A DNA stretch of 55,794 bases from Bacteriovoracaceae bacterium (GTDB taxonomy: Bacteria > Bdellovibrionota > Bacteriovoracia > Bacteriovoracales > Bacteriovoracaceae): contig JAGSHI010000007.1 of the NCBI GenBank assembly GCA_023954635.1, positions 1 to 55,794 of the forward strand, given 5' to 3'. Positions within the stretch are counted from its first letter, which is position 1; each line of letters opens with the position of its first letter. A model generated the notes under the pieces. That model saw only the letters and a list, made by a program, of their open reading frames with translations. It made no database searches and was not told the origin of the DNA. The translations under genes and the position numbers were made by a program. Below are positions 16,367 to 55,596 of this stretch, in pieces.

Positions 16367-18556
16367 ATGAGAAGACAAAAGAACTTCTTAACTTTCATCA
16401 AAAACAGCGGTGGTTTCTCACTCGCTGAAATCATGGTGTCAGCAGGTATACTCGGGATGATTTCTCTGGGTGTGATGCAAATGACCCAGAATATGCAGAA
16501 GAATCAGAAGAAATTTCAATATGATTCTGAAATTAATGAAATGTTAACCAGAGTCCAAATGGGCTTAAGAGATAAGGCTGCCTGTGAAAGGACTTTTGTG
16601 GGGGCTTCTGATACTGCAAACGCTCCTACACCTTTAGCTCCGGTCACAACTTACGCTGATGCCACGGCTGACTATACAAACTCAACAGCTCTTGTGAATA
16701 CACTTTATTCAGGAAATGAAGATGGTGCTGGTAACTCCATGGTGATGTTGCAAGTAGGTCAAACCTACGGAGCCGTTGGTGGAAGGTTTTCTATTTTAGA
16801 AATTAAACTTCACTCGGCTGACCCTGTTGGTGCCATGAACCAACTAACTCGTGCTCGAGTTGGTATAAAGATAAGAAAACAAGGTCCTGTAGATGACAGA
16901 GGTGATGCCGATCCAAGTAACGATGTTTTAAAGGCTTCTTGGGGACCTGCTGAAGTTGTTAAAAACTTCGATATCATGATTACTGTTTGGGATGCTGCTG
17001 ACCCTGCAAGAGCTGGAGCCGGCGGTACTACTGGTGAACTTAGATCTTGTTTTGTTTCTGAAGATTATTATGTGAATGCAGCCTGTAAGGCCCTAGGTGG
17101 TACTGTTGATACTGATGGTGCTTGTAAGAACTTAGCGGTTGGTAAGTTAACTGAAGCTTATCCTGCCGATACGCTTAATAATGAATCTGTTAGTTGGGAA
17201 TTTCTAGTAGAAGGTAATTCAAGACTAAAAAATAATTTAGAAGTTGGTTATGATAACGGGGCTGAGACTGACCCTGCTGCTTTAACTTATTTTTCTCCAA
17301 TTGAGGCAGATCCATTATATGGAACTCAAGGTTTAGCTCATATTCAAAATTATCTCTTTGTAGGTTTTGAAGCCGATGTGGCTACCGGAACAAATGATGT
17401 TCCTTCAGCAGTTGCTGGAGACTTTGCTCAAGGTGGTATTGTCGCTAAAGGGAACCTCTTTGTTGGTTCTGATAACTCAGCGGCATTAAATAATATTAGA
17501 AATGGATCTGTAGGTAATGGTGTCTTCACTAACGGTAGTCTCTACTCAGGTTTTAATCAAGCCACTGATTTAAATACCGTGAGTGTTGCAGCTGGACAAT
17601 CAGGTGATGTTGTCGCTGCCCAAGGTATGACAGTTAGAAACATTGGCAATACTGGTTATGGTTTAGATATTAGGGATGAAGGTGCGCCAATTGCAAGACA
17701 ACTATTAAAGGTTGGTGATGATACTGCCTTTCACGATGTTGATGTCGCTAACACTCTAGCTCTAAGAGGTGATGCAAATAGTGACCGTGCAACACTACAA
17801 CTTGGTACTGGTGCCGCATCAAAAATTACAGGTAGATCAAACCGTATCGGTATCAATGAGCCAAACCCACTTGTACAGTTAGATGTTAATGGAAACACTC
17901 GTATTGATGGAAATATAGATGTTAATGGAAATGGAGATATTTCTGGATACTTAACACTTGGACAACCATCAATTAACCAGGTTCCACCTGATAACTATGC
18001 TGCAACTACAGGCTGGGTTAGACAAAGAATTGCAAATACACTCGCACCTGATTCCACTACACGTGGACAGATCGCAAGTGATATTTTAAATACGACTTTT
18101 AATGAAGCCGGATCAGCCCTAAGAGTGATTCAGCAAAATTATTGTACTCGACTTCAGATAAGAACTGGTTATACGGGTACCTCTTATGCTGCGGCTGTTT
18201 ATGGAACTTGGAGTGGCGGTAGATGTGTTTATTATGTTAAAAACTGTGGGTACAATAATCACTGTAATAATGTCTATGCCAACAATGGTGTGATAGCTGA
18301 TGCTTATGTGTATTCATTGGGATTCATTAGAGCGAATAGTTACATTAGAGCATATGGAACAAGTTCTTATATTAGAACGGATTCTTATATGTATGCCTCG
18401 AGTTATATTAGAACTCAGAGTCGGTTCTGTATTGGCGGAACTGACCCTAGGGCAAATTGTATAACTCGAATTCCAAATGTAGATTGTGGATACTTAAACA
18501 AAGTTAGGGGTATTCATAATGGTTATGTTCAATGTGCAACAGACATTAAACCTTAA
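16367..18556 (+). CDS. Large pilin-like protein with fibre-like body and Cys-rich C-terminus
   Basis: Residues about 17-45 form a type IV prepilin signal: a basic leader, a Gly-Gly/Phe cleavage site (GG before FSLAEIMVSAG, with Glu at mature position 5) and a hydrophobic helix. Pilins are usually 120-250 residues; this is 729. The middle region (about 250-560) is rich in Gly, Asn and Asp with beta-strand segments such as GNTRIDGNIDVNGNGDISG and LTLGQPSINQVPPDNYAAT, which resemble phage tail fibres and S74-type fibres. The last 140 residues carry at least eight Cys and repeated S-Y-I-R units. Likely a surface-exposed pseudopilin-tethered adhesin. No pilus assembly genes are nearby, so assembly partners are unknown. 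Confidence 0.75.
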   Translation: MRRQKNFLTFIKNSGGFSLAEIMVSAGILGMISLGVMQMTQNMQKNQKKFQYDSEINEMLTRVQMGLRDKAACERTFVGASDTANAPTPLAPVTTYADATADYTNSTALVNTLYSGNEDGAGNSMVMLQVGQTYGAVGGRFSILEIKLHSADPVGAMNQLTRARVGIKIRKQGPVDDRGDADPSNDVLKASWGPAEVVKNFDIMITVWDAADPARAGAGGTTGELRSCFVSEDYYVNAACKALGGTVDTDGACKNLAVGKLTEAYPADTLNNESVSWEFLVEGNSRLKNNLEVGYDNGAETDPAALTYFSPIEADPLYGTQGLAHIQNYLFVGFEADVATGTNDVPSAVAGDFAQGGIVAKGNLFVGSDNSAALNNIRNGSVGNGVFTNGSLYSGFNQATDLNTVSVAAGQSGDVVAAQGMTVRNIGNTGYGLDIRDEGAPIARQLLKVGDDTAFHDVDVANTLALRGDANSDRATLQLGTGAASKITGRSNRIGINEPNPLVQLDVNGNTRIDGNIDVNGNGDISGYLTLGQPSINQVPPDNYAATTGWVRQRIANTLAPDSTTRGQIASDILNTTFNEAGSALRVIQQNYCTRLQIRTGYTGTSYAAAVYGTWSGGRCVYYVKNCGYNNHCNNVYANNGVIADAYVYSLGFIRANSYIRAYGTSSYIRTDSYMYASSYIRTQSRFCIGGTDPRANCITRIPNVDCGYLNKVRGIHNGYVQCATDIKP

Positions 18557-18569
18557 TCAATCAAAAATA

Positions 18570-19763
18570 CTATTTCCAATTCGGATTTCTTAGGGCCTCC
18601 TTTATGGAGGTCAAAAGATTTCCGTTGATTACCTCTAAGTATCTTCCATTAAGATAATAGGTCGGCTGAATTTTAATTCCCATCATAGTAACTAATAACC
18701 TTGATAGTGAGTTGTTCGTTTTCTTTTCTCTTTTATTTTGTGTACAAAGCTCCCAACTTTCATGACTCGAACTACTTAGATGTTTTTTAAATAATTCTGA
18801 AATCAATAATTCTGACTCATCATTATTTTTGGACATCTGTGAAAGTAGTTCTTTATCTTGAATAATATCTACATGAAGTTTCCAGTAAGTGTCAGCGTCT
18901 TCCTTTAAGGCACAAGTCATATAATGACCAATATTGTCTTCGAGGAGATCTCGCTGAGTAGAGGCAGGAGGAGGTGGAGGAGAAATAATAAATTGTTTAA
19001 TCAAGAGATCATCTTTTAGCACTTTGAAGAGGTTAGAAACCTGAAGGTTCAGAGGTACACATCGTTTACATCCATAATTTGTAAAGATCTCAAGGGTATA
19101 CTTTGCGTCTATCTTGTTTCCAAGAGTCGCAATATCCTTCTTGTCGACAAATGAAAGCTCAGGATGTTTGGGGGGAAGAATATAAATCTTAAATAACTCA
19201 TCATCCTCTAGTTGCTTTAATCTTTTGAAGAAAGCTTTTGAGTGCCAGTCGATAGTAATATCTTGAGTTAGTTGAATGAGAGCAGCATTTTTGTTTTTAA
19301 TAGGATATGTCTTTTTTACTTTTTCATAATACTTTTCGACATATTCTTCTGTGGGTGGAGTTATAGCTAGGAGTTGCGCGATATTGGGAAGGATTTGTGG
19401 ATAACCCATCTTAGAATCGACATAATTATACATAATAATAAAAGTTTCTTTTAGAGCAATTAGACTTCTCATGTAGGCATCTTGTTTTATTCTATACAGA
19501 TCAAACTTTGCACTGGTTGGGAAATCTTTAAATTTCATAATATTTTTTTTAAATTTACCAACCACATAATCTGAAGGATACAATGAACCTGGATCGATAC
19601 TCGATTCTACTTGTGCTCTCTCAATAGAATCACCTTGATTTACAGATAGAAATGGATTTTTGGAATTTGATTGTTCTGTTTTATTGAAATGGTTCACGGT
19701 AAAAATAACAATTAAAGTTAAAGTCACACCGAGGATTATAATTTGTATCTTGTTTTGTTTCAT
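18570..19763 (-). CDS. Membrane-anchored DsbA-like thioredoxin-fold protein
   Basis: The 397-residue product has an N-terminal membrane anchor (about 6-23), a helical region to about 210 and a C-terminal thioredoxin-like domain. The active-site CxxC is CKRC (Cys232, Cys235) following an EIFTNYG strand, and the cis-proline loop is QPTYYLNG near residue 370, with the YLNGR pattern seen in DsbA/DsbG-type proteins. A proline run (PPPPPA) is inserted after the active-site helix. It probably acts in the periplasm on disulfide bonds; oxidase versus isomerase cannot be told. It diverges from the gene at 19833 across overlapping promoters. Confidence 0.8.
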   Translation of the reverse strand: MKQNKIQIIILGVTLTLIVIFTVNHFNKTEQSNSKNPFLSVNQGDSIERAQVESSIDPGSLYPSDYVVGKFKKNIMKFKDFPTSAKFDLYRIKQDAYMRSLIALKETFIIMYNYVDSKMGYPQILPNIAQLLAITPPTEEYVEKYYEKVKKTYPIKNKNAALIQLTQDITIDWHSKAFFKRLKQLEDDELFKIYILPPKHPELSFVDKKDIATLGNKIDAKYTLEIFTNYGCKRCVPLNLQVSNLFKVLKDDLLIKQFIISPPPPPASTQRDLLEDNIGHYMTCALKEDADTYWKLHVDIIQDKELLSQMSKNNDESELLISELFKKHLSSSSHESWELCTQNKREKKTNNSLSRLLVTMMGIKIQPTYYLNGRYLEVINGNLLTSIKEALRNPNWK

Positions 19764-46348: not shown

Positions 46349-46642
46349 TTAGCTTTTTACAATAAAACTTTTATCTAAGACTTCTTGAATGAAACCTCGT
46401 GCATCATTTTCCAATTGATCCTTTTCGACTCCGTGTTTCTGAGATAATTGATCAACAATTTGTGAGGCAGACTGTCCTTTACTTAACTCTTGCCAAACTT
46501 CAGCAGCAACACCGTCAATCTTGAAAAATACTGTTGAGTCATCCATTCTCATTAAGACACAAGTTCCATCTTGATTTGTTCTCGAGATGATATCATCCGC
46601 AACTTTGAAGGTATTATTGAGTAGATCAGTATCAGCATTCAT
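46349..46642 (-). CDS. PqqD-like peptide-chaperone (RiPP recognition element) protein
   Basis: The 97-residue product matches PqqD by its pattern: a short beta region with STVFFKIDGVAAEVWQEL, then QSASQIVDQLSQKHGV and a last helix with FIQEVLDKSFI. PqqD-type domains bind leader peptides and hand them to radical SAM enzymes; stand-alone copies also occur in polysaccharide clusters. The ATG at 46642 has GGAG 6 nt upstream; the longer frame from 46669 starts at TTG. It is divergent from the radical SAM gene across 106 bp with back-to-back promoters. No precursor peptide is visible, so the client is unknown. Confidence 0.78.
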   Translation of the reverse strand: MNADTDLLNNTFKVADDIISRTNQDGTCVLMRMDDSTVFFKIDGVAAEVWQELSKGQSASQIVDQLSQKHGVEKDQLENDARGFIQEVLDKSFIVKS

Positions 46643-46677
46643 GTAAACTCCGAATTTTAAAATTGCCAAGTAGCATC

Positions 46678-46748: not shown

Positions 46749-48095
46749 ATGGATAAAACCAAAGTTTCCAAGAAAATTAATGATGTCTCTCCCTCATTTT
46801 GTTTGGCAAAATGGCTGCAAGTTACTATTGATTTAGTGAATGGGACAACTCATAGTTGTCATCATCCAAAGAGGCATCATATTCCAGTTGAAGGGTTAGA
46901 AGATAATCCTTCGCAACTTCACAATACACATTTTAAGAAGCAACAGAGAAAACTTATGTTGGAGGGAGTAAGGCCTCCTGAATGTGTTTATTGTTGGAAT
47001 ATTGAGGACACTCCTGGTGAGCATTATAGTGATCGATTTATAAAGTCTTCTGATGACTGGGCCTGGCCTTATTTAGATGAAGTAAAAAAACGAGATTGGC
47101 AGGATGATATAAAGCCTACTTATGTCGAAGTAATGTTTGATAATACTTGTAATTTAAGTTGCAGTTATTGTTTGGCAGAAGTGAGTTCTAGTATATACGG
47201 TGAAATGGAAAAGCATGGTCCATATTCAGTAAGGGCCTCTGATCACAGAATGATTCAAGGACCACTTAAGCGATATAGCCAAGAAGAGAACCCCTATATA
47301 AAAGCATTTTGGAAGTGGTTGCCTGAATTAAAAAATGATTTAGAGGTTTTGAGAGTTACAGGTGGTGAGCCTCTATTAGCTAAAGAGACTAATGAACTTC
47401 TAGAGGTTCTTCAGAAGATTGATTTTAAAAAGTTATCACTATCGATCAATACAAATCTATGTCTTCCTGACAAAATTCTAGATACATTTATAGAGAAATC
47501 AAAAAATATTCTTAAAACGAAAAAGATTAAATCATTTGACCTCTTTGTTTCTGTCGATACTTATGGAAAGCAAGCTGAATATATAAGGAAGGGACTAGAT
47601 TACGATCTATTTATAAAAAATGTGAAAAGGTTTTGTGAAGAACTTCCTAACGGAAGAGTCATTATTATGTGTACATATAATGTATTGTCTATTGTGGGTT
47701 TTAAGAAACTTTTAGAAGAAGTTCTTGAGTTGAAAAAGAGTTATGGAAACTTAGTACTGGACTTGAGTTACTTGAGAGATCCGGAATACTTAAAGGCAAG
47801 TATGTCTTGTTCTAGTCTAAAGTCTATTGCTGAAGATGATTTACATTGGATGAAGCAGCATCAAACTGATGATGGTGACGGTTACTCTTCTCATGAGGTC
47901 AATAAGTTTGCAAGAATTGTGAACTGGATGAAAGATAGTTCTAATAAAAAAGAAATGAGCAATATTAGAGGAGACTTTTTTTCGTTTATTAATGAATTTG
48001 ATAAAAGGTATAACTCTAGTTTTCTAGAAACTTTTCCTGAAATGAAAGAGTTCTATATTTTAGCTAAAAAAAATAAATTTCTTCAAACGTTTTAA
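46749..48095 (+). CDS. Radical SAM protein with N-terminal twitch-like domain
   Basis: The 448-residue protein begins with a twitch-like domain (about 15-120) holding SFCLAKWLQVTIDL, HSCHHPKRHHIP and ECVYCWNIED, whose cysteines can bind an auxiliary 4Fe-4S cluster. The radical SAM motif is CNLSCSYC near 135-142 and VTGGEPLL is the SAM-binding GGE. This N-terminal arrangement is the reverse of the usual C-terminal SPASM/twitch. Substrate unknown. It starts the second half of the cluster, followed 10 nt later by the membrane-anchored protein and then the second glycosyltransferase. The gene diverges from the PqqD-like gene. Confidence 0.88.
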   Translation: MDKTKVSKKINDVSPSFCLAKWLQVTIDLVNGTTHSCHHPKRHHIPVEGLEDNPSQLHNTHFKKQQRKLMLEGVRPPECVYCWNIEDTPGEHYSDRFIKSSDDWAWPYLDEVKKRDWQDDIKPTYVEVMFDNTCNLSCSYCLAEVSSSIYGEMEKHGPYSVRASDHRMIQGPLKRYSQEENPYIKAFWKWLPELKNDLEVLRVTGGEPLLAKETNELLEVLQKIDFKKLSLSINTNLCLPDKILDTFIEKSKNILKTKKIKSFDLFVSVDTYGKQAEYIRKGLDYDLFIKNVKRFCEELPNGRVIIMCTYNVLSIVGFKKLLEEVLELKKSYGNLVLDLSYLRDPEYLKASMSCSSLKSIAEDDLHWMKQHQTDDGDGYSSHEVNKFARIVNWMKDSSNKKEMSNIRGDFFSFINEFDKRYNSSFLETFPEMKEFYILAKKNKFLQTF

Positions 48096-48105
48096 TAGGA
48101 TAGAA

Positions 48106-48597
48106 ATGAACTCAAAAATGAAATGGGTATATTCTTCTCTTGCCGTTATCTTGATCCTCGTAACGATAATGGAAGTAAAGAATTATAATAAAATAAAAGA
48201 ACTAAAGTTAACTGTAACTGAACTACAAAAACAAATAGATGATAAAATCAATGATCGCAAAGTAACGAGTGAGTTCGATCATTATATTTTTAAAAGTCAG
48301 GTGTTCTGTACGAAAGGTCCCGTTAAACAAGTTCTAATCATTAATAAGAAAAAAGAATTTAAATATTATGTCAACGTTAAGAAGTTTCCTTTCGTCGCAA
48401 AATTCAATACTTTAAAATTATCAGGATATATAAGACTAAAAGATAGGAGAATCAGATTTTTCCTAAAAGACAATGGGAAATATGAACTTAAACATTTTGG
48501 GTACTTGTTTGACTGGGGTCCGGATGGTGAAGTCACGGGATTAGAGACAGTAGAAGAAACATATCATCTCGATTACTGCAATGAGGCTATGCAATGA
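48106..48597 (+). CDS. Membrane-anchored coiled-coil protein, unknown
   Basis: The 163-residue product has a transmembrane helix (about 8-23), a short coiled coil (about 28-52) and a small beta-rich domain with Cys residues (FCTKGPVKQ and DYCNEA). Plan and Cys placement resemble the protein at 36779, so they may be distant relatives. Its stop overlaps the glycosyltransferase start (ATGA), placing it in the same operon. It may be an anchor for the glycosylation machinery; this is inferred from position only. Confidence 0.7.
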   Translation: MNSKMKWVYSSLAVILILVTIMEVKNYNKIKELKLTVTELQKQIDDKINDRKVTSEFDHYIFKSQVFCTKGPVKQVLIINKKKEFKYYVNVKKFPFVAKFNTLKLSGYIRLKDRRIRFFLKDNGKYELKHFGYLFDWGPDGEVTGLETVEETYHLDYCNEAMQ

Positions 48598-49841
48598 AAA
48601 TAGCGCTAATAAGAAAAACTGAAAGTTCGAAATGGGTTAGTTGCAGATCAATAACTGATAATATTGAAACCGCCTACAAAGACGCATATGATAACGTCAG
48701 TACTTTTTTTATAAGTGAAAGTGCGGACAAAGTTCAAATGTTTCTTGAGTTCAAAAAAATTAAAGATGAGAATTTTGATCTTGTTGCTTTTATCGATCAT
48801 AAACCTACCCCTTTAAATGTTTTTAACTCAATGGAAATGGCTTTTTCTTCTTATGACCCTCAAGTAATTATCCATGTTTTTGGTGACTTTACGCTCTATT
48901 CTTCTGAATGGAGTAGTGTCGAAAAAATATTGAAGGAAAGACCTGTTAAATTTGTCGTTGCTTCCGGCGCTCAGAAGAAATTAATTTCTCACTTTGTAGA
49001 GGATGATTCAATCGTGGAAATTCCATTTCCTGTTCATGAGAACTTTAAATTCGATTCACAAAAAAGAGAAAAAACTCGAGCTAAATATAATCTTAAGAAT
49101 GAACAAGTCTTTTTGTATACAGGTCGGATCTCATCCCAGAAGAATGTTATAGAGCTGGTGAAAAGTTTTAGCTCAACAAAAAACCAAATGGGTTTAGATG
49201 CAAAATTACTCATATGTGGGGAGTTTGATGACCTTGGAATACCCTTTCTTGGAAAAGTTATGCCTGAGGGGAGTAGTATCCAGAATTATTATAAAGAGCT
49301 GTCTCGTATAGAGGGAAGTATTGAATTCCTTGGGAACCTTGAGCAGGATGAACTAATTGATCTTTATTCAGCAGTCGATTGTTTTTTAAGTCTAAGCACT
49401 CATAACGATGAAGATTACGGAATGTCTCCGGCGGAAGCACTGTGCTCTGGCTTGCCATGTCTTCTTACTTCGTGGGGAGGCTATAATTCATTTGCAAAGA
49501 TGAATTCTGATAATGTAAAAACGGTATCCGTAAATATTGAAGGTGATCGTCTATTGCCAGATTTAACAAATCTTCGAAAACAATTAATGGGTAGTTCTAA
49601 ACTAGATAACGATGGTCGCAAGAAACTGTCTGATGAAATGAGAGAGATATTACTTCCCTCAAAAATTGGAAAAGTGATAAAAAATAACCTTGAGAATATT
49701 AAAGTATTCTCTGGCTTTAAAGATGAGTTAAAGAAGTTCTCATCTTGTATCGAGTTAAATCCAAAAGCTCCATTCCGAAGTGGTGCTGGAGGTTACTCAG
49801 ATTACTATAAAAAAATATATGCTTGTTATCAGGAGCAATAA
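48594..49841 (+). CDS. GT4-like glycosyltransferase
   Basis: The 415-residue GT-B enzyme has FLYTGRISSQKNVIELV and the complete EX7E motif EDYGMSPAE within HNDEDYGMSPAEALCSGLP. Its end (NPKAPFRSGAGGYSDYYKKIYACYQ) echoes the KAP-x-V-x-G element of the glycosyltransferase at 43807. The product resembles polysaccharide or glycoconjugate glycosyltransferases; donor and acceptor are unknown. It overlaps the upstream membrane protein gene and precedes the unknown gene at 49845 by 3 nt. Confidence 0.85.
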   Translation: MKIALIRKTESSKWVSCRSITDNIETAYKDAYDNVSTFFISESADKVQMFLEFKKIKDENFDLVAFIDHKPTPLNVFNSMEMAFSSYDPQVIIHVFGDFTLYSSEWSSVEKILKERPVKFVVASGAQKKLISHFVEDDSIVEIPFPVHENFKFDSQKREKTRAKYNLKNEQVFLYTGRISSQKNVIELVKSFSSTKNQMGLDAKLLICGEFDDLGIPFLGKVMPEGSSIQNYYKELSRIEGSIEFLGNLEQDELIDLYSAVDCFLSLSTHNDEDYGMSPAEALCSGLPCLLTSWGGYNSFAKMNSDNVKTVSVNIEGDRLLPDLTNLRKQLMGSSKLDNDGRKKLSDEMREILLPSKIGKVIKNNLENIKVFSGFKDELKKFSSCIELNPKAPFRSGAGGYSDYYKKIYACYQEQ

Positions 49842-49844
49842 CAG

Positions 49845-50801
49845 ATGAACTTTTTCAAAGATAGTGATATTGAAGAAGAGTTTCAGTTCAATAGAAGTGA
49901 GATGTGGCTAGATCTAGAAAATGTAGATAGTGAGTTTGAGGAAGAGATGCTTCCTCACTCAAAAGCCTATGTTGATTCCTCTCGGCCAATGTGGCTGTTT
50001 TATGTCAAGTCAATCGAGAAGCTAGGTTACTTTTCTTGGATTCATTCCAGAGATGGATCTCTAGGCTTAATTAGATTCTTTTCAAAATTTCCTGAACCTA
50101 ATGGCATTAAAACAAAAATTTTAATGAATAAGATGCATTATCGACTTGTTCCGAATGAGTGGAAAGAAAATATACTATTATATGAAAATGTAAGAACGGT
50201 TGATAATTATGACAATGAAGTTGTATACCTCGCCATTACTGGACACGAACTCGCAACGAGTCTTCCAGCACTTGAGGCTGTCTGTAAAAAAATAAATAAT
50301 CTTAAAGGTGTTCAGAGAGTTGTAATCGTACCTTTCAATCTTACGATAAAGGGTACAGAGTCTCTATCTCAAGGGGAATCTTTTCTATGTGAAGCTTCTG
50401 GTCTTGTTTATAAAAATATAAACACATCGGTTTCTACTTTGAATATGTATAAACTTCAATTTGAAAACCTAAATGGTAAATTGTTTTTAAATTTAAATAG
50501 TAACCTTACTCTATTCTCTGAGAGTTACTTTGATTTCTATATGAAAAGCAGAGGCGCAGTTTCTTTAAACGATGAATACGTTAAAAATATAGATGGAAAC
50601 GTCATGGAAACTGGGGCTGGTTATGGAATTCGGCTATGTGAGAGTTGGCCCTCAGACTATCAAAAAGTTAGAGATAAAATAGACACAACATTTAATAAAA
50701 ATCTGGACTCACTATTAAAAAATGACTTAGAGAGTCAAGAAAACCCAGTGTTTTTCAATTTAGAACTGAGCACTTTTGATCACTGGGTTAAATCAATTTG
50801 A
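49845..50801 (+). CDS. Hypothetical protein, 318 residues, unknown family
   Basis: I do not recognise this protein. It is soluble-looking with no signal peptide. It starts with a short acidic helical segment and has segments such as VVYLAITGHELATSLPALEAVC and VIVPFNLTIKGTESLSQGESF, which look like a Rossmann-type alpha/beta fold. A Wtx motif is absent. AGGAG lies about 9 nt upstream and its last bases overlap the next start (TTGA). Position between a glycosyltransferase and a nucleotidyltransferase-like gene makes a role in the same pathway likely. Confidence 0.75.
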   Translation: MNFFKDSDIEEEFQFNRSEMWLDLENVDSEFEEEMLPHSKAYVDSSRPMWLFYVKSIEKLGYFSWIHSRDGSLGLIRFFSKFPEPNGIKTKILMNKMHYRLVPNEWKENILLYENVRTVDNYDNEVVYLAITGHELATSLPALEAVCKKINNLKGVQRVVIVPFNLTIKGTESLSQGESFLCEASGLVYKNINTSVSTLNMYKLQFENLNGKLFLNLNSNLTLFSESYFDFYMKSRGAVSLNDEYVKNIDGNVMETGAGYGIRLCESWPSDYQKVRDKIDTTFNKNLDSLLKNDLESQENPVFFNLELSTFDHWVKSI

Positions 50802-51766
50802 ATTTAAAGCAGCTTGGAATATTTATAAGTAAATTTATGGACATTCTTCCTTATCGTATTTCGAGTTTGCCATATGACTATGCTCTACAGATTGTAAGAG
50901 CTTCTTTTAAGGATTTCGATGTTCAAATATGGTCTAGAAATGGCCACGCACTTAAAACCTTAACTCCGGGCGCTTCAGACCTCGATATTACAGTGTATTC
51001 TTATTCAGGTTTAGATGTTGATAAATTTATCGAACGTTATCAAAACCTTAAGTTGTATTTGCCCTTCCTCGGAGAAATAAATTGGATAGATTCACGTTAT
51101 GTTAATAACTTTAAAAGTTATTTGAATCCAATGGAGGCCAATAGAGACGAAGTACTTAAAACAACGATTCACTTTGAGAAAAATATTTCACTTTCAGATA
51201 AAACGACATTCTTTCTTCGCTGTCTTGCTTCAGACACTTACGGAATTAGAGAAGATTTTAATGCAAGAAAAAGAAAATGGAATAGGCATATGTTAGACCT
51301 TGGTATTAATCCTATAGGTGAAAACATAGATTCACCTATGGACATTTTTGAATACTGTAATCATCGTCTCGTTCAAGAGAGCATTGGGGGAAACCCTCAA
51401 AACTTTTTAACAAAACTAATTGAGCAAAAAGATAACGATATCAATGCATGGAATAGGTTTTATTCAAAAGTTGAAAAAAAAGACTTTATATTAATGGCCC
51501 CTAATCATTGGATTGGAGCAAGCCTACATCACAGATCCTTTGAGGAAGATATAAAAGTTCTAAACAGTCTTTCGGCCAGCGAAAATGAGTTACTCATATC
51601 CCAATTGGAATGGGAGATTTGGGGTTTATTTACCCAATATTTATGCATTAGCGAAAAAGAAAACTTAATTTCTCACTTTAAGAACTTTAAGAGGTTCTCC
51701 GCTGAAGTGACTGGTGGAGAGCATCTTGTTAAAGGTTTTCAATACTTAATAGAAATTCAGACCTGA
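50798..51766 (+). CDS. Nucleotidyltransferase-fold protein
   Basis: The 322-residue product begins at a TTG overlapping the previous stop. A TPGASDLDITVYS segment (about 57-69) fits the nucleotidyltransferase motif G-[GSA]-x-D-x-D, where both aspartates bind metal. The rest is helical with LHHR and WIGASLHHRSF. This could add a nucleotide to a sugar or small molecule, or be an inactive relative. Such proteins occur in some natural product and lasso peptide clusters next to PqqD-like genes. The 3' end overlaps the convergent ABC ATPase gene by 10 bp. Family assignment rests on the one motif. Confidence 0.6.
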   Translation: MNLKQLGIFISKFMDILPYRISSLPYDYALQIVRASFKDFDVQIWSRNGHALKTLTPGASDLDITVYSYSGLDVDKFIERYQNLKLYLPFLGEINWIDSRYVNNFKSYLNPMEANRDEVLKTTIHFEKNISLSDKTTFFLRCLASDTYGIREDFNARKRKWNRHMLDLGINPIGENIDSPMDIFEYCNHRLVQESIGGNPQNFLTKLIEQKDNDINAWNRFYSKVEKKDFILMAPNHWIGASLHHRSFEEDIKVLNSLSASENELLISQLEWEIWGLFTQYLCISEKENLISHFKNFKRFSAEVTGGEHLVKGFQYLIEIQT

Positions 51767-52545
51767 GATAGTCCAGTAATTTTATTATAAAGATTAAGGC
51801 CTTTATCCACATCACCATCAAAAACAAGTTTTGATTTATCTATTATAAGGACTCTATTGCAAGATAGTTTAATATGCTCTGGGAAATGGCTTACAAGAAC
51901 CACAGCACCTGAGTCCTCAATCATACTAAGTGTTCTTTTGGATATCTTCTTTTGAAAACTAAGATCAGCACCCTCAAAAACTTCATCTAAAATGAGTAAA
52001 TCGCAAGGTCTCGCAGTAATCACGGATAAACAAAGTCGTGCTTGCATCCCTCTACTGTAGCTCTTGAACGGAACATCTAAGAAATCACCCAATTCAGCAA
52101 AAGCTAAACCTTCGTTGACAAGACTTTGTCGCTCTTCGGGAGTGAGGTCTGGAAATAAGAGAAGTGCCAGCATCTCAGCATTCTCCCTCCCCGTTAACTC
52201 TGGAAGTACAGATATCGTTGTATTAAAAATTGGTCGCACTTCCCCGTGTGTCTCAACACTACCTTCAGAAGGAACGAGCATCCCAGATAGACATCGGCAT
52301 AATGTAGTCTTCCCGCTTCCATTAATTCCTAGTATTCCAATCCTGTCCCCGCGCTTAACCTCAAATGAAATATCGTCTAAGGCCAAAAACTTCTCTTTGG
52401 GCTTTAGGAGAAAATCAATAGGAGCTCTTACACCCTTAATGAAAAAATCTCTGAGATTATTAGCTTCATAAAAGTCCATGTTGTATGCAAGCTTTAGGTT
52501 TGAGACCTTTGCAATTGAACTTTCAGAGATGGATATAGAATTCAT
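51757..52545 (-). CDS. ABC transporter ATP-binding protein, Wzt/KpsT-like
   Basis: The 262-residue product has Walker A GINGSGKTT, the signature SYSRGMQARL and Walker B LLILDEVFEGAD, with the N-terminal DDISFEVKRGDRIGI typical of polysaccharide exporters (Wzt, KpsT, TagH). It powers the membrane partner at 52523, with its start overlapping that gene by 23 nt. The ATG at 52545 is chosen over a longer frame to 52599 because it aligns with the family. No C-terminal carbohydrate-binding domain is present, so it is the short KpsT-like form. Confidence 0.9.
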   Translation of the reverse strand: MNSISISESSIAKVSNLKLAYNMDFYEANNLRDFFIKGVRAPIDFLLKPKEKFLALDDISFEVKRGDRIGILGINGSGKTTLCRCLSGMLVPSEGSVETHGEVRPIFNTTISVLPELTGRENAEMLALLLFPDLTPEERQSLVNEGLAFAELGDFLDVPFKSYSRGMQARLCLSVITARPCDLLILDEVFEGADLSFQKKISKRTLSMIEDSGAVVLVSHFPEHIKLSCNRVLIIDKSKLVFDGDVDKGLNLYNKITGLSQV

Positions 52546-53299
52546 TTCGTTTTTTTCTCCAATAATAGAAAGCAATGAGTAGTGAACTTGCTGTGACAAA
52601 GTTTGCAGCTAATATTTGATTTAAGAATTCACTAGAACCAAAGTTATAAATACAAGTTCTAACAGGAAGTATAAGTATATAAAGTGGATTCAATACAATG
52701 ATGGCCCGAATATTCTCAGGTACAAATTCAGGCGGGTAAAAAATAGGGGTTAAGAAGAGGGCAACATTGGTAATGAAGGGTAAAACAAAACGAGTGTCTC
52801 TGTAGAACACTTGAAGAATGGATAGGATCCAGGTTACACCGGTGACCCCTAATACAAGATTTATTAACGCAAAAATAAGATAGGGTAGACCTTGAATATT
52901 TTCCCCGAAAAATATCCAAGTGGGGATCAGTAAAATAAGAAAGGCAAATAGAAAGTTGAAAAAATTATCGAGGAGTTGGCTTAATAAAATAACGAGTGGA
53001 TTTATCTTAAAGCCGAGTAATACATCTCTGGTCGTTAGAAAGAGAGGAGTGCACATTTCGATACTTGTAGTTACGAAGATCCAAGGTAGAATTCCTCCAA
53101 GCAAGAATAATGAATAATTTGGAATAGCAATCTTTAGAAAATGTTTAAAAACTAACGATTGAACACTATAGATAAGAATTGGACTCATCACGACCCATAG
53201 AAAACCTGCAAAAGTTTTTCTGTAGCGTGATTTCATATTGGCGACAGTTAAATTCTTAACTTGTTCCCAATAGAGTCTTTGGAAGATTCTTTGGTTCAT
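52523..53299 (-). CDS. ABC-2 type permease, Wzm/KpsM-like
   Basis: The 258-residue membrane protein has six predicted transmembrane helices and an N-terminal amphipathic helix with MKSRYRKTFAGFLW-type sequence, as in Wzm, KpsM and TagG. It forms the export channel for a lipid-linked glycan or related product together with the ATPase at 51757. No Shine-Dalgarno is present; TAAAAT at 53307-53312 on the minus strand lies 7 nt before the ATG. It marks the export step of this cluster. Confidence 0.88.
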   Translation of the reverse strand: MNQRIFQRLYWEQVKNLTVANMKSRYRKTFAGFLWVVMSPILIYSVQSLVFKHFLKIAIPNYSLFLLGGILPWIFVTTSIEMCTPLFLTTRDVLLGFKINPLVILLSQLLDNFFNFLFAFLILLIPTWIFFGENIQGLPYLIFALINLVLGVTGVTWILSILQVFYRDTRFVLPFITNVALFLTPIFYPPEFVPENIRAIIVLNPLYILILPVRTCIYNFGSSEFLNQILAANFVTASSLLIAFYYWRKKRNEFYIHL

Positions 53300-53345: not shown

Positions 53346-53762
53346 CTATCGCAAGATATTTGAGAGGATTATCTTAATTTTTGTTCCGAATGGAATTGTT
53401 TTACCTTCAACAGTTCCGAGTATGTGCTCGACAGGAACAGGAATATCATCATTTCGGTAGTCTTTTAAACTTCGGGTTATAACAGTGAGTTTACCATCAG
53501 CATTGAGCTTTTTACTTAAATGCCAAACATAATGGCAGATCAACTTGGCTCCATCCCAATAGAGAATTGGAACAAAGCGAGTTAATGTTTGATAGTTGCT
53601 TAATGATCTTACGGTAATCAACTCATCGACATTTAAAACAGGGGTCATGGAATCAGATATAATTCTGACTCCAAGTGCTCCTTTATTTTCGATCTCACCT
53701 CTAAGCTCTAAAAAACTTTTTTGATCGTGAAATGGAGGAATAAACTCCTGCTTTGATTTCAT
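53346..53762 (-). CDS. S24/S26 peptidase-like protein
   Basis: The 138-residue product contains VRIISDSMTPVLNVDELITVR, which matches the S-x-S-M-x-P-x-L-x-x-x-D motif of S24/S26 serine peptidases, with the nucleophile Ser in SM-x-P, and a later AKLICHYV with a Lys in the position of the general base. It has no N-terminal transmembrane helix. It may be a leader or signal-type protease or an inactive relative. It lies 46 nt upstream of the permease on the same strand, so peptidase, permease and ATPase may form one operon. The substrate could be a peptide of this cluster. Confidence 0.68.
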   Translation of the reverse strand: MKSKQEFIPPFHDQKSFLELRGEIENKGALGVRIISDSMTPVLNVDELITVRSLSNYQTLTRFVPILYWDGAKLICHYVWHLSKKLNADGKLTVITRSLKDYRNDDIPVPVEHILGTVEGKTIPFGTKIKIILSNILR

Positions 53763-53911: not shown

Positions 53912-53941
53912 TTGAATTTAATTAGTGTCTGATGATATAAT
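53912..53941 (+). promoter_or_regulatory. Promoter of the S74 gene
   Basis: TTGAAT (53912-53917), 18 bp and TATAAT (53936-53941), with an extended TGA just before the -10. One of the best promoters in the window; predicts a leader of about 22 nt. Confidence 0.6.
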
Positions 53942-53969: not shown

Positions 53970-54416
53970 ATGAGTGAAGATAAAAAGAAAAAATCAGAAA
54001 ATAAGGAAGACGGATACTACTTTGGTGGAATCAAGGAGTTCAACCTTGAAGAAATCGAAGCTGAGGTTTTAAACGACAGTGTTTATCTTGATGTATTTGC
54101 TGGTTCAGATATTAGATTTAAACAAAACGTAGAGCCTCTTGCAGGATCTGTTGAAAAAATAATGTCTTTGAATGCGATGAAGTATGATTATAAATCTGAA
54201 GCATTCCCTAATAAAAACTTTTCAAGTAATAAGCAGATCGGTTTCATGGCACAGTCTGTTGAAAAGGTTCTTCCTGAACTTGTTGCTACAGATAATGATG
54301 GATATAAGGCCATTAACTATGCTCATTTAACTCCAGTTCTGGCAGAGGCCATTAAGGAATTAAATAATAAAATCGAAACACTTGAGAAGAAAATCAAAGA
54401 GCTAGAATCAAAATAA
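53970..54416 (+). CDS. Freestanding endosialidase-type chaperone domain (peptidase S74)
   Basis: The 148-residue product ends in a complete S74 intramolecular chaperone domain: GSDIRFKQNV (the autocleavage Ser and Lys five residues later), LNAMKYDY, IGFMAQSVEKVLPELV, INYAHLTPVLAEAIKELNNKI and a C-terminal coiled coil. This domain normally sits at the end of phage tail fibres and trimeric adhesins, helps their folding and then cuts itself off. Here only about 40 residues precede it, with an acidic GYYFGGIKEFNLEEIEAEVL stretch and no fibre. It has its own strong promoter and terminator and lies between the peptidase-like gene and a radical SAM gene. Confidence 0.88.
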   Translation: MSEDKKKKSENKEDGYYFGGIKEFNLEEIEAEVLNDSVYLDVFAGSDIRFKQNVEPLAGSVEKIMSLNAMKYDYKSEAFPNKNFSSNKQIGFMAQSVEKVLPELVATDNDGYKAINYAHLTPVLAEAIKELNNKIETLEKKIKELESK

Positions 54417-54440
54417 AAAGTTTCATTTAGTATAACTTGG

Positions 54441-54480
54441 AACCAGCTTGATTTTTAATAGAACAAGCTGGTTTTTTTTT
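54441..54480 (+). terminator. Intrinsic terminator of the S74 gene
   Basis: Stem AACCAGCTTG (54441-54450) and CAAGCTGGTT (54464-54473) with ten T residues to 54480. The next gene's ATG at 54481 begins immediately after the T-run. Confidence 0.9.
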
Positions 54481-55596
54481 ATGAAAAAAAACCAAATAGC
54501 CTCTAATTTTCAAGATACCCAAAAAGTCATCTCAAAATTTGATAGTAAAAATCTTGAAGTCGATTCATTTTGTCTCGTCCCATTTACGAATATTATCTTA
54601 GAGCCCAATGGAGACATTGGGATTTGTCGCCAGAAGGGGAGTGACTTCACCTTTGGGAATTTGAGAGATAACAGCTTGATGGAAATTTGGAATGGTGAGG
54701 AAATTAGAAAATGGCGTAAAGAGTTCCTTACTGGAGAAGTTGAGGTTTGTGCAAAGGAGTTTAAATATAAGAAATGTAATCTTTGCCCACAAAACAATAA
54801 ACTTTTAGATGAGGTCGTTTTTTCTGAGGTTCAGGATTCCCCTCCTATTAAGTTAACAGCAAACTTCAATGGCTTTTGTAACCTTAGATGCCAAATGTGT
54901 GATGTCTGGGAATTGCCAAACGGATTTTATACAGAAGATAACTTTTGGAAATATGCGAGGAAAGAACTTTTTCCAAATCTAAAAGAAATTGACATGCTTA
55001 GTGGTGAGCCTTTTTTACAAGATGATACTTTTAAACTGATCGAAGAAGTGAGCAGTATAAATCCTGATTGTGAATGGACTATTACTACAAATGCTCACTA
55101 TCAATTATCTGGTAAAATTAAAGAATACTTAAACTCCATAACTTTTAAAAACTTAATTATTAGCATTGATAGCATTAACTCTGAGACATATTCACTAATT
55201 AGAAAGCGAGGAAAATTAGAAACAGTCTTGCAGACACTTGATGATTATGTTGAATATGAGAAAGAGCGTATTGCTAACTCTAAATCTCCACTTAATATAA
55301 AACTTAATTTTCTTATTCAAAAAGACAACTGGAAAGAATTGAAATCTATTCTTGAATTTTGTAATTCGAACTCGGTTTCTCCTTTCATAACTTTTTGCTA
55401 TTTTCCAGATGGTTATTCGTTGTTAGATCTTGATGTAAGCGAGCGTTTGGATATTTTGAGATTTTGGTTAAGGGATATGGATTATGTTGAGATTTCAACA
55501 GCTGCCAGGGTAATTCGTCCGCTTGTTGATAGCTTGAATGGAATTGATAAAGCTGAAATCGTTTCTACGATTCAAAATTTAAAGTCTCTCACATGA
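54481..55596 (+). CDS. Radical SAM protein with N-terminal SPASM-like cysteines
   Basis: The 371-residue product starts at an ATG directly after the terminator T-run. The first 110 residues contain VPFTNIILEPNGDIGICRQ, FGNLRDNSLMEIWNGEEI and CNLCPQN, which resemble a SPASM module placed before, not after, the core. The radical SAM motif is CNLRCQMC near 140-147 and LSGEPFL is the SAM-binding segment. The arrangement is like the twitch radical SAM protein at 46749. It may modify a peptide or a glycan-linked group. Its 3' end overlaps a convergent gene by 18 bp. Confidence 0.87.
   Translation: MKKNQIASNFQDTQKVISKFDSKNLEVDSFCLVPFTNIILEPNGDIGICRQKGSDFTFGNLRDNSLMEIWNGEEIRKWRKEFLTGEVEVCAKEFKYKKCNLCPQNNKLLDEVVFSEVQDSPPIKLTANFNGFCNLRCQMCDVWELPNGFYTEDNFWKYARKELFPNLKEIDMLSGEPFLQDDTFKLIEEVSSINPDCEWTITTNAHYQLSGKIKEYLNSITFKNLIISIDSINSETYSLIRKRGKLETVLQTLDDYVEYEKERIANSKSPLNIKLNFLIQKDNWKELKSILEFCNSNSVSPFITFCYFPDGYSLLDLDVSERLDILRFWLRDMDYVEISTAARVIRPLVDSLNGIDKAEIVSTIQNLKSLT

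Follow-up and report, generated by a model that had tools for sequence, protein, structure and literature searches.

The window analysed here, a stretch of 55,794 nucleotides from a Bacteriovoracaceae genome, carries a short gene for a freestanding S74 protein, with a radical SAM gene directly downstream. The window also has genes for a PqqD-like protein, a second radical SAM enzyme, a glycosyltransferase, an exporter permease, a peptidase candidate and a large prepilin. The features are given below with their coordinates, strand and basis.

53970-54416, plus strand: freestanding S74 protein, 148 aa, ATG start (Pfam PF13884, 4.7e-15; 26 orthologues in the family and 5 outside)
54015-54104, plus strand: conserved peptide YYFGGIKEFNLEEIEAEVLNDSVYLDVFAG, codons 16-45, putative RRE-bound substrate (alignments, entropy, silent to replacing changes 14:1)
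54105-54122, plus strand: SDIRFK, codons 46-51, with putative nucleophile Ser46, Lys51 and predicted cut Gly45|Ser46 (SDxxxK motif)
54105-54410, plus strand: S74 domain and C-terminal helix, residues 46-147 (AlphaFold2 model, Foldseek 7dc3)
53912-53941, plus strand: sigma-70-like promoter with extended -10, TTGAAT-18-TATAAT (consensus scan only)
54439-54480, plus strand: terminator- or attenuator-like hairpin with T-run between the S74 and radical SAM genes (RNA fold)
54481-55596, plus strand: SPASM radical SAM enzyme directly downstream, 371 aa (Pfam SPASM 1e-12, Radical_SAM 1.6e-13)
46349-46669, minus strand: PqqD-like RRE protein, 106 aa, co-occurring partner (Pfam PqqD 1.6e-12; curated NCBIfam PqqD/RRE models match under their cut-offs)
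46749-48095, plus strand: twitch-domain radical SAM enzyme, divergent from PqqD (NCBIfam NF033640, 1.7e-95)
48594-49841, plus strand: GT4-type glycosyltransferase of the island (Pfam 1.4e-19)
52523-53299, minus strand: ABC-2 type exporter permease of the island (Pfam 1.8e-11)
53346-53762, minus strand: soluble S24/S26-like peptidase candidate (weak TIGR02228 match, 5e-8, under cut-off)
16367-18556, plus strand: fibre-like prepilin without S74, 729 aa (N_methyl 0.0016, under cut-off)

An earlier note on this DNA had described an S74 domain with the Ser and Lys of SDIRFK, about 40 residues in front of it and a coiled coil at the C-terminus, and the analysis bore this description out. The Pfam Peptidase_S74 match (E = 4.7e-15) covers residues 46-105 and scores 56.1 bits against a curated cut-off of 22, Ser46 and Lys51 are both in place, and 45 hydrophilic residues precede the predicted cut. 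An AlphaFold2 model built on a 26-sequence alignment contains a long C-terminal helix (residues 117-147); residues 51-148 were modelled at pLDDT of about 90 or more and residues 1-45 were mostly disordered. The nearest solved fold found by Foldseek was the MyRF autocleaving domain (7dc3, E 4.6e-6), with 3gud at E 0.012. SDxxxK is the cleavage motif of S74 domains and has been shown to cleave in Bdellovibrio Bd3182 (PMC10769870); other S74 domains fold, trimerise, cut themselves before the Ser and release trimeric fragments (PMC10769870, PMC3742440). A search of the whole 3.7-Mb assembly returned this S74 domain as the only one. Neither an export signal nor a hydrophobic stretch was found in the protein by hydropathy scan, the maximum over 15 residues within the first 45 being at most 0.96 in 28 orthologues, compared with 2.15 in the pilin of the window. 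The signal peptide and long beta-rich fibre that stand ahead of S74 in MAT fibres were absent from this protein as well. As the S74 protein has no export signal, the cytosol would be common to it, PqqD and the radical SAM enzymes.

The gene had also been called strongly promoted, with a terminator of its own. Among the sigma-70-like sites of the region, the promoter at 53912-53941 scores highest, but such sites are no more numerous in the consensus scan than expected by chance (12 vs 9.7 +/- 2.9), which leaves strong promotion plausible but unproven. As for the terminator, the hairpin and T-run at 54439-54480, directly before the radical SAM ATG at 54481, have a folding z of -3.9, and none of 200 shuffles was as stable. 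This hairpin was absent from the list of the consensus scan. The same arrangement of S74, hairpin and radical SAM was observed in the congener G002. Such a hairpin between the two genes would let the carrier exceed the enzyme in amount.

Orthologues were searched with a profile of residues 15-50 over 129 genomes of the family and the wider phylum. Exactly one full-length copy was found in each of 26 family genomes, in open frames of 147-178 codons, and the same profile search recovered an orthologue in five genomes of two other families. At the nucleophile position the aligned family orthologues have Ser in 25 cases and Cys in one, with Lys51 in 26/26, and both the Ser and the Lys of SDxxxK are kept in the five distant ones. 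A Ser-to-Cys change at the nucleophile still allows cleavage in MYRF (PMC3742440). Mixed trimers with other S74 proteins of the same cell are unlikely, because the S74 domain of this gene was the sole one found in 10 of the 26 genomes.

Judged from alignments and codon changes, conservation in the S74 protein is highest over the 30 residues that precede the cut. The motif YxDVFAG (Y-[LI]-D-V-F-A-G) stands immediately ahead of the cut in 31/31 orthologues, without variation. Entropy just before the cut is near 0 in the orthologues vs about 3 bits in 20 S74 domains on other proteins, where the aligned pre-cut positions are nearly random. For the closest pair of genomes (G000-G002), the final 30 codons ahead of the cut have silent and replacing changes at 14:1, vs 33:20 in the next 70. 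None of the 28 unfused orthologues has a Cys among the 30 residues ahead of the cut, which puts the thioether classes (sactipeptide/ranthipeptide) out of consideration. For the N-terminal peptide without S74, no convincing case was found in the 129 family genomes, and the phylum search gave S74 proteins only. In G024 (L038:9752-9949), the opening of the conserved peptide, Y-x-F-G-G-I-E, occurs twice, like a repeated recognition motif.

Other sources of the gene were considered. Relatives in Bacteroidota bins (L034, L035) have S74 at the end of long proteins and the peptide is absent from them. A search of viral contigs brought up no relative. A phage origin was rejected; among the matches listed, most were long-tail-fibre proteins and none covered 80% of the query. 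A plasmid origin was rejected too, the best plasmid matches being 'tail fiber domain' proteins of Bacteroidota.

PqqD is a RiPP leader-recognition fold. Stand-alone PqqD-like RREs are known to bind leader peptides and to bring in the enzymes that modify them (PMC7470986). One PqqD clade was present in 25/26 S74 genomes and in 3 others (Fisher p 3e-22, genus level p 4e-8; the co-occurrence p-values here and below ignore part of the shared ancestry), the tightest co-occurrence with S74 of all genes tested. Inside genus g15, S74 and the PqqD clade show the same patchy presence, so that shared ancestry alone is not enough to explain their co-occurrence. The one S74 genome without the PqqD clade was G075, and PqqD without detected S74 was seen in G085 (short contig), G097 (PqqD at the contig end) and G111, a real exception. 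The two genes are also physically linked, at less than 18 kb in 23/23 genomes with both on one contig and within 200 bp, in tandem or convergent, in 11 genomes. In G352 the gene order is PqqD, S74 and radical SAM, the ATG of the last following immediately on the stop codon of S74.

In three genomes of two other families (G201, G337 and G341), the link takes the form of a single gene of about 250 residues, ordered PqqD, linker, conserved peptide and S74. For the G201 fusion, AlphaFold2 modelled LKSFN, part of the conserved peptide, as a strand followed by a helix, compared with coil in the S74-only model. The PqqD part of the fusion has its best structure match in the lasso-peptide RREs 5v1v (Z 10.0), 5v1u and 6jx3, whose structures include bound leader peptides. 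The predicted strand, together with this match, agrees with RRE-leader binding. Going by genome comparison, the main partner of the S74 protein is PqqD and not the pilin.

SPASM radical SAM enzymes modify peptides, as known from PqqE, mycofactocin and the sactipeptide maturases. The window holds two candidate radical SAM enzymes, at 54481-55596 and 46749-48095. The clade of the former was found in 24/26 S74 genomes (p = 5e-19). Twitch-domain enzymes of the latter type (NF033640) reach up to 13 copies per genome in the family, including copies on other G000 contigs. Common to the 26 family neighbourhoods is an island of glycosyltransferases (22/26), radical SAM, PqqD, an S24/S26-like peptidase (13/26), a nucleotidyltransferase-like gene and an ABC exporter (permease in 14/26); these counts are lower bounds, since neighbourhood ORFs were called by a simple longest-ORF rule, under which the PqqD of G022 stayed hidden until a profile search placed it. 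Two conserved neighbouring genes in the window, 49845-50801 and 50798-51766, had no Pfam or NCBIfam match. The latter contains a nucleotidyltransferase-like motif, GASDLD, and occurs widely across the family, including genomes without S74.

The gene resembles RRE-dependent RiPP precursors in having both a PqqD/RRE partner and a modifying enzyme (radical SAM/SPASM) nearby. We propose, at roughly even chances and from sequence comparison, that the S74 protein acts in the cytosol as a self-releasing carrier of a short conserved peptide, which would be modified via PqqD and radical SAM. The S74 domain would trimerise and cut itself at the predicted Gly45|Ser46 and so release an N-terminal peptide with the ending ...NDSVYLDVFAG. 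The upstream peptide part, YxFGGIxEFNLxxIE, may be the recognition sequence for the partner PqqD (RRE), which would present the downstream part (...VLNDSVYLDVFAG) to a SPASM/twitch radical SAM enzyme of the island. Cleavage by S74 would then set a defined C-terminus of the product, and the product might be used by the glycosyltransferase/ABC-exporter island. Given the lack of variation in the putative core, a conserved, cofactor- or primer-like product (cf. PQQ, mycofactocin) would be expected rather than a variable antibiotic. More tentatively, at somewhat under even probability, the gene would encode a self-releasing ribosomal peptide precursor, in which a trimer of the S74 autoprotease bears a peptide recognised by the RRE and modified by radical SAM, and then cuts it free; a former fibre chaperone would here serve as release device for a conserved cofactor or glycan primer derived from the peptide. 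The modification might be a C-C or C-O crosslink involving Tyr, Asp or Phe, or be of some other kind. Given the invariant YxD, a Tyr-x-Asp crosslink of the triceptide type was also weighed; it would be a guess, for which the literature searched gave no direct support.

That the protein might, after cleavage, be a substrate of the neighbouring radical SAM enzyme had been a side remark of the earlier note, and it is now better supported than the note's title claim of a chaperone acting in trans. The co-occurrence and fusion with PqqD, the tandem order of PqqD, S74 and radical SAM, and the hyper-conserved peptide all argue for the remark, with the modification itself still putative.

Several known systems share parts of this arrangement. 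The phage K1F endosialidase, the T5 L-shaped fibre and the Bdellovibrio MAT fibres (Bd3182) have the S74 fold, SDxxxK and C-terminal helix in common with the 53970 protein; unlike them, it has no fibre and no signal peptide, and it has a conserved 30-residue peptide and a genetic tie to PqqD and radical SAM. MYRF, a eukaryotic transcription factor, likewise uses an S74-type domain (7dc3, tolerant of Ser-to-Cys; PMC3742440) to release its N-terminal part intracellularly. However, MYRF is membrane-anchored and releases a DNA-binding domain, whereas the 53970 protein would release a short peptide and has neither a DNA-binding domain nor a membrane segment. The PQQ (PqqA/PqqD/PqqE), mycofactocin and lasso RRE systems offer the combination of a discrete PqqD-like protein, a SPASM radical SAM enzyme and a small peptide gene, and RRE-dependent radical SAM RiPP pathways also have a peptidase, glycosyltransferases and an exporter nearby. 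In contrast to such pathways, a folded domain, predicted to trimerise and cleave itself, follows the peptide here, and the RRE is sometimes fused to the peptide-bearing protein. In the literature searched, we found no RiPP precursor with a self-cleaving S74 domain and nothing on S74 together with PqqD or radical SAM. In this literature the known roles of S74 autoproteases are the folding of fibres and the release of a transcription factor, and a role in peptide maturation would be new. If true, the proposal would add an autoproteolytic precursor to the RRE-dependent peptide pathways and would point to a conserved peptide-derived product in the bacterial family of the S74 protein, a family that probably has Bdellovibrio-like predators among its relatives. 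With one gene copy per genome and with PqqD-S74 fusions occurring in nature, the proposal lends itself to a direct test.

The conserved peptide might, on the other hand, be only a docking tail. The protein would then be a trimeric scaffold whose N-terminal tails bind PqqD, and through PqqD the island enzymes, non-covalently, and cleavage would only switch off the assembly or detach the tail. This is a possible but unlikely alternative. Linkage and fusion are accounted for just as well by this alternative, whose one difference is that no modification takes place; the co-occurrence with PqqD, the disorder of the conserved tail and a fusion that keeps PqqD on the peptide until the cut suit it too. 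A scaffold alone, however, gives no reason for the seven most invariant residues to lie right before the cut, nor for the co-occurrence of the radical SAM clade.

The title claim of the earlier note, that the free S74 protein is a trans-acting chaperone which helps the fibre part of the S74-less prepilin to trimerise, we consider improbable. The fibre-like pilin at 16367 does exist, with a prepilin N-terminus, 729 aa and no S74 match, and genomic linkage speaks for the idea: large S74-less prepilins lie at most 9.5 kb from S74 in 8/26 genomes, once (G059) 47 bp upstream on the same strand, and the pilin C-terminal domain co-occurs with S74 in 15/26 genomes (p = 5e-9). Relatives also appear to have prepilins with S74 in cis. 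However, the pilin domain went undetected in 11/26 S74 genomes, the fibre part of the pilin lies beyond the inner membrane whereas the S74 protein has no signal sequence, and the NS74 fibres of Bdellovibrio use a different C-terminal domain for folding (PMC10769870). A chaperone role also leaves the conserved peptide unexplained, and PqqD, which is fused to S74 in some genomes, shows a far tighter co-occurrence. The missing export signal, the position of the strongest invariants before the cut and the tightest partner being PqqD thus all weaken the reading.

Less probable still is that the peptide serves as a glycan primer, with its conserved Tyr/Ser glycosylated by island enzymes and the glycan exported by ABC-2 after S74 release. 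The glycosyltransferases (22/26) and ABC permeases (14/26) of the neighbourhoods and the invariant Tyr39 are in line with this, but it needs neither PqqD nor the radical SAM enzymes, the 22/26 count takes the glycosyltransferase families together, and we know of no precedent for S74 in glycan priming. A degraded fibre gene, with the S74 end left over from a long fibre that was lost, can practically be dismissed: S74 does normally end long proteins, which are plentiful in relatives, but the truncated remnant with a decayed N-terminus that the earlier note had envisaged was looked for, and instead there are 31 intact short orthologues with the catalytic residues kept and with strong purifying selection (14:1 silent to replacing) on an N-terminal part that is the best conserved of all.

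The prepilin at 16367-18556 has a Cys-rich C-terminal domain and is followed by a convergent gene (18570-19763) with a weak thioredoxin-type match; pairs of this kind recur in G029 and G022. Some relatives appear, judged by equal frame length, to have a prepilin N-terminus in one open frame with S74 at the C-terminus, which would be pilins with S74 in cis (G012:C4:246313-247665, G014:C3:121890-123377, G035:C66:9637-10830, G031:C15:301-1623, G026:C19:29267-31261, G019:C15:45769-46896 and G011:C18:153634-155430). G043, a genome that belongs to another family, yielded 14 S74 matches on contig C87 and others; most lie in open frames about 190-410 codons long, and four stand in a row on one contig.
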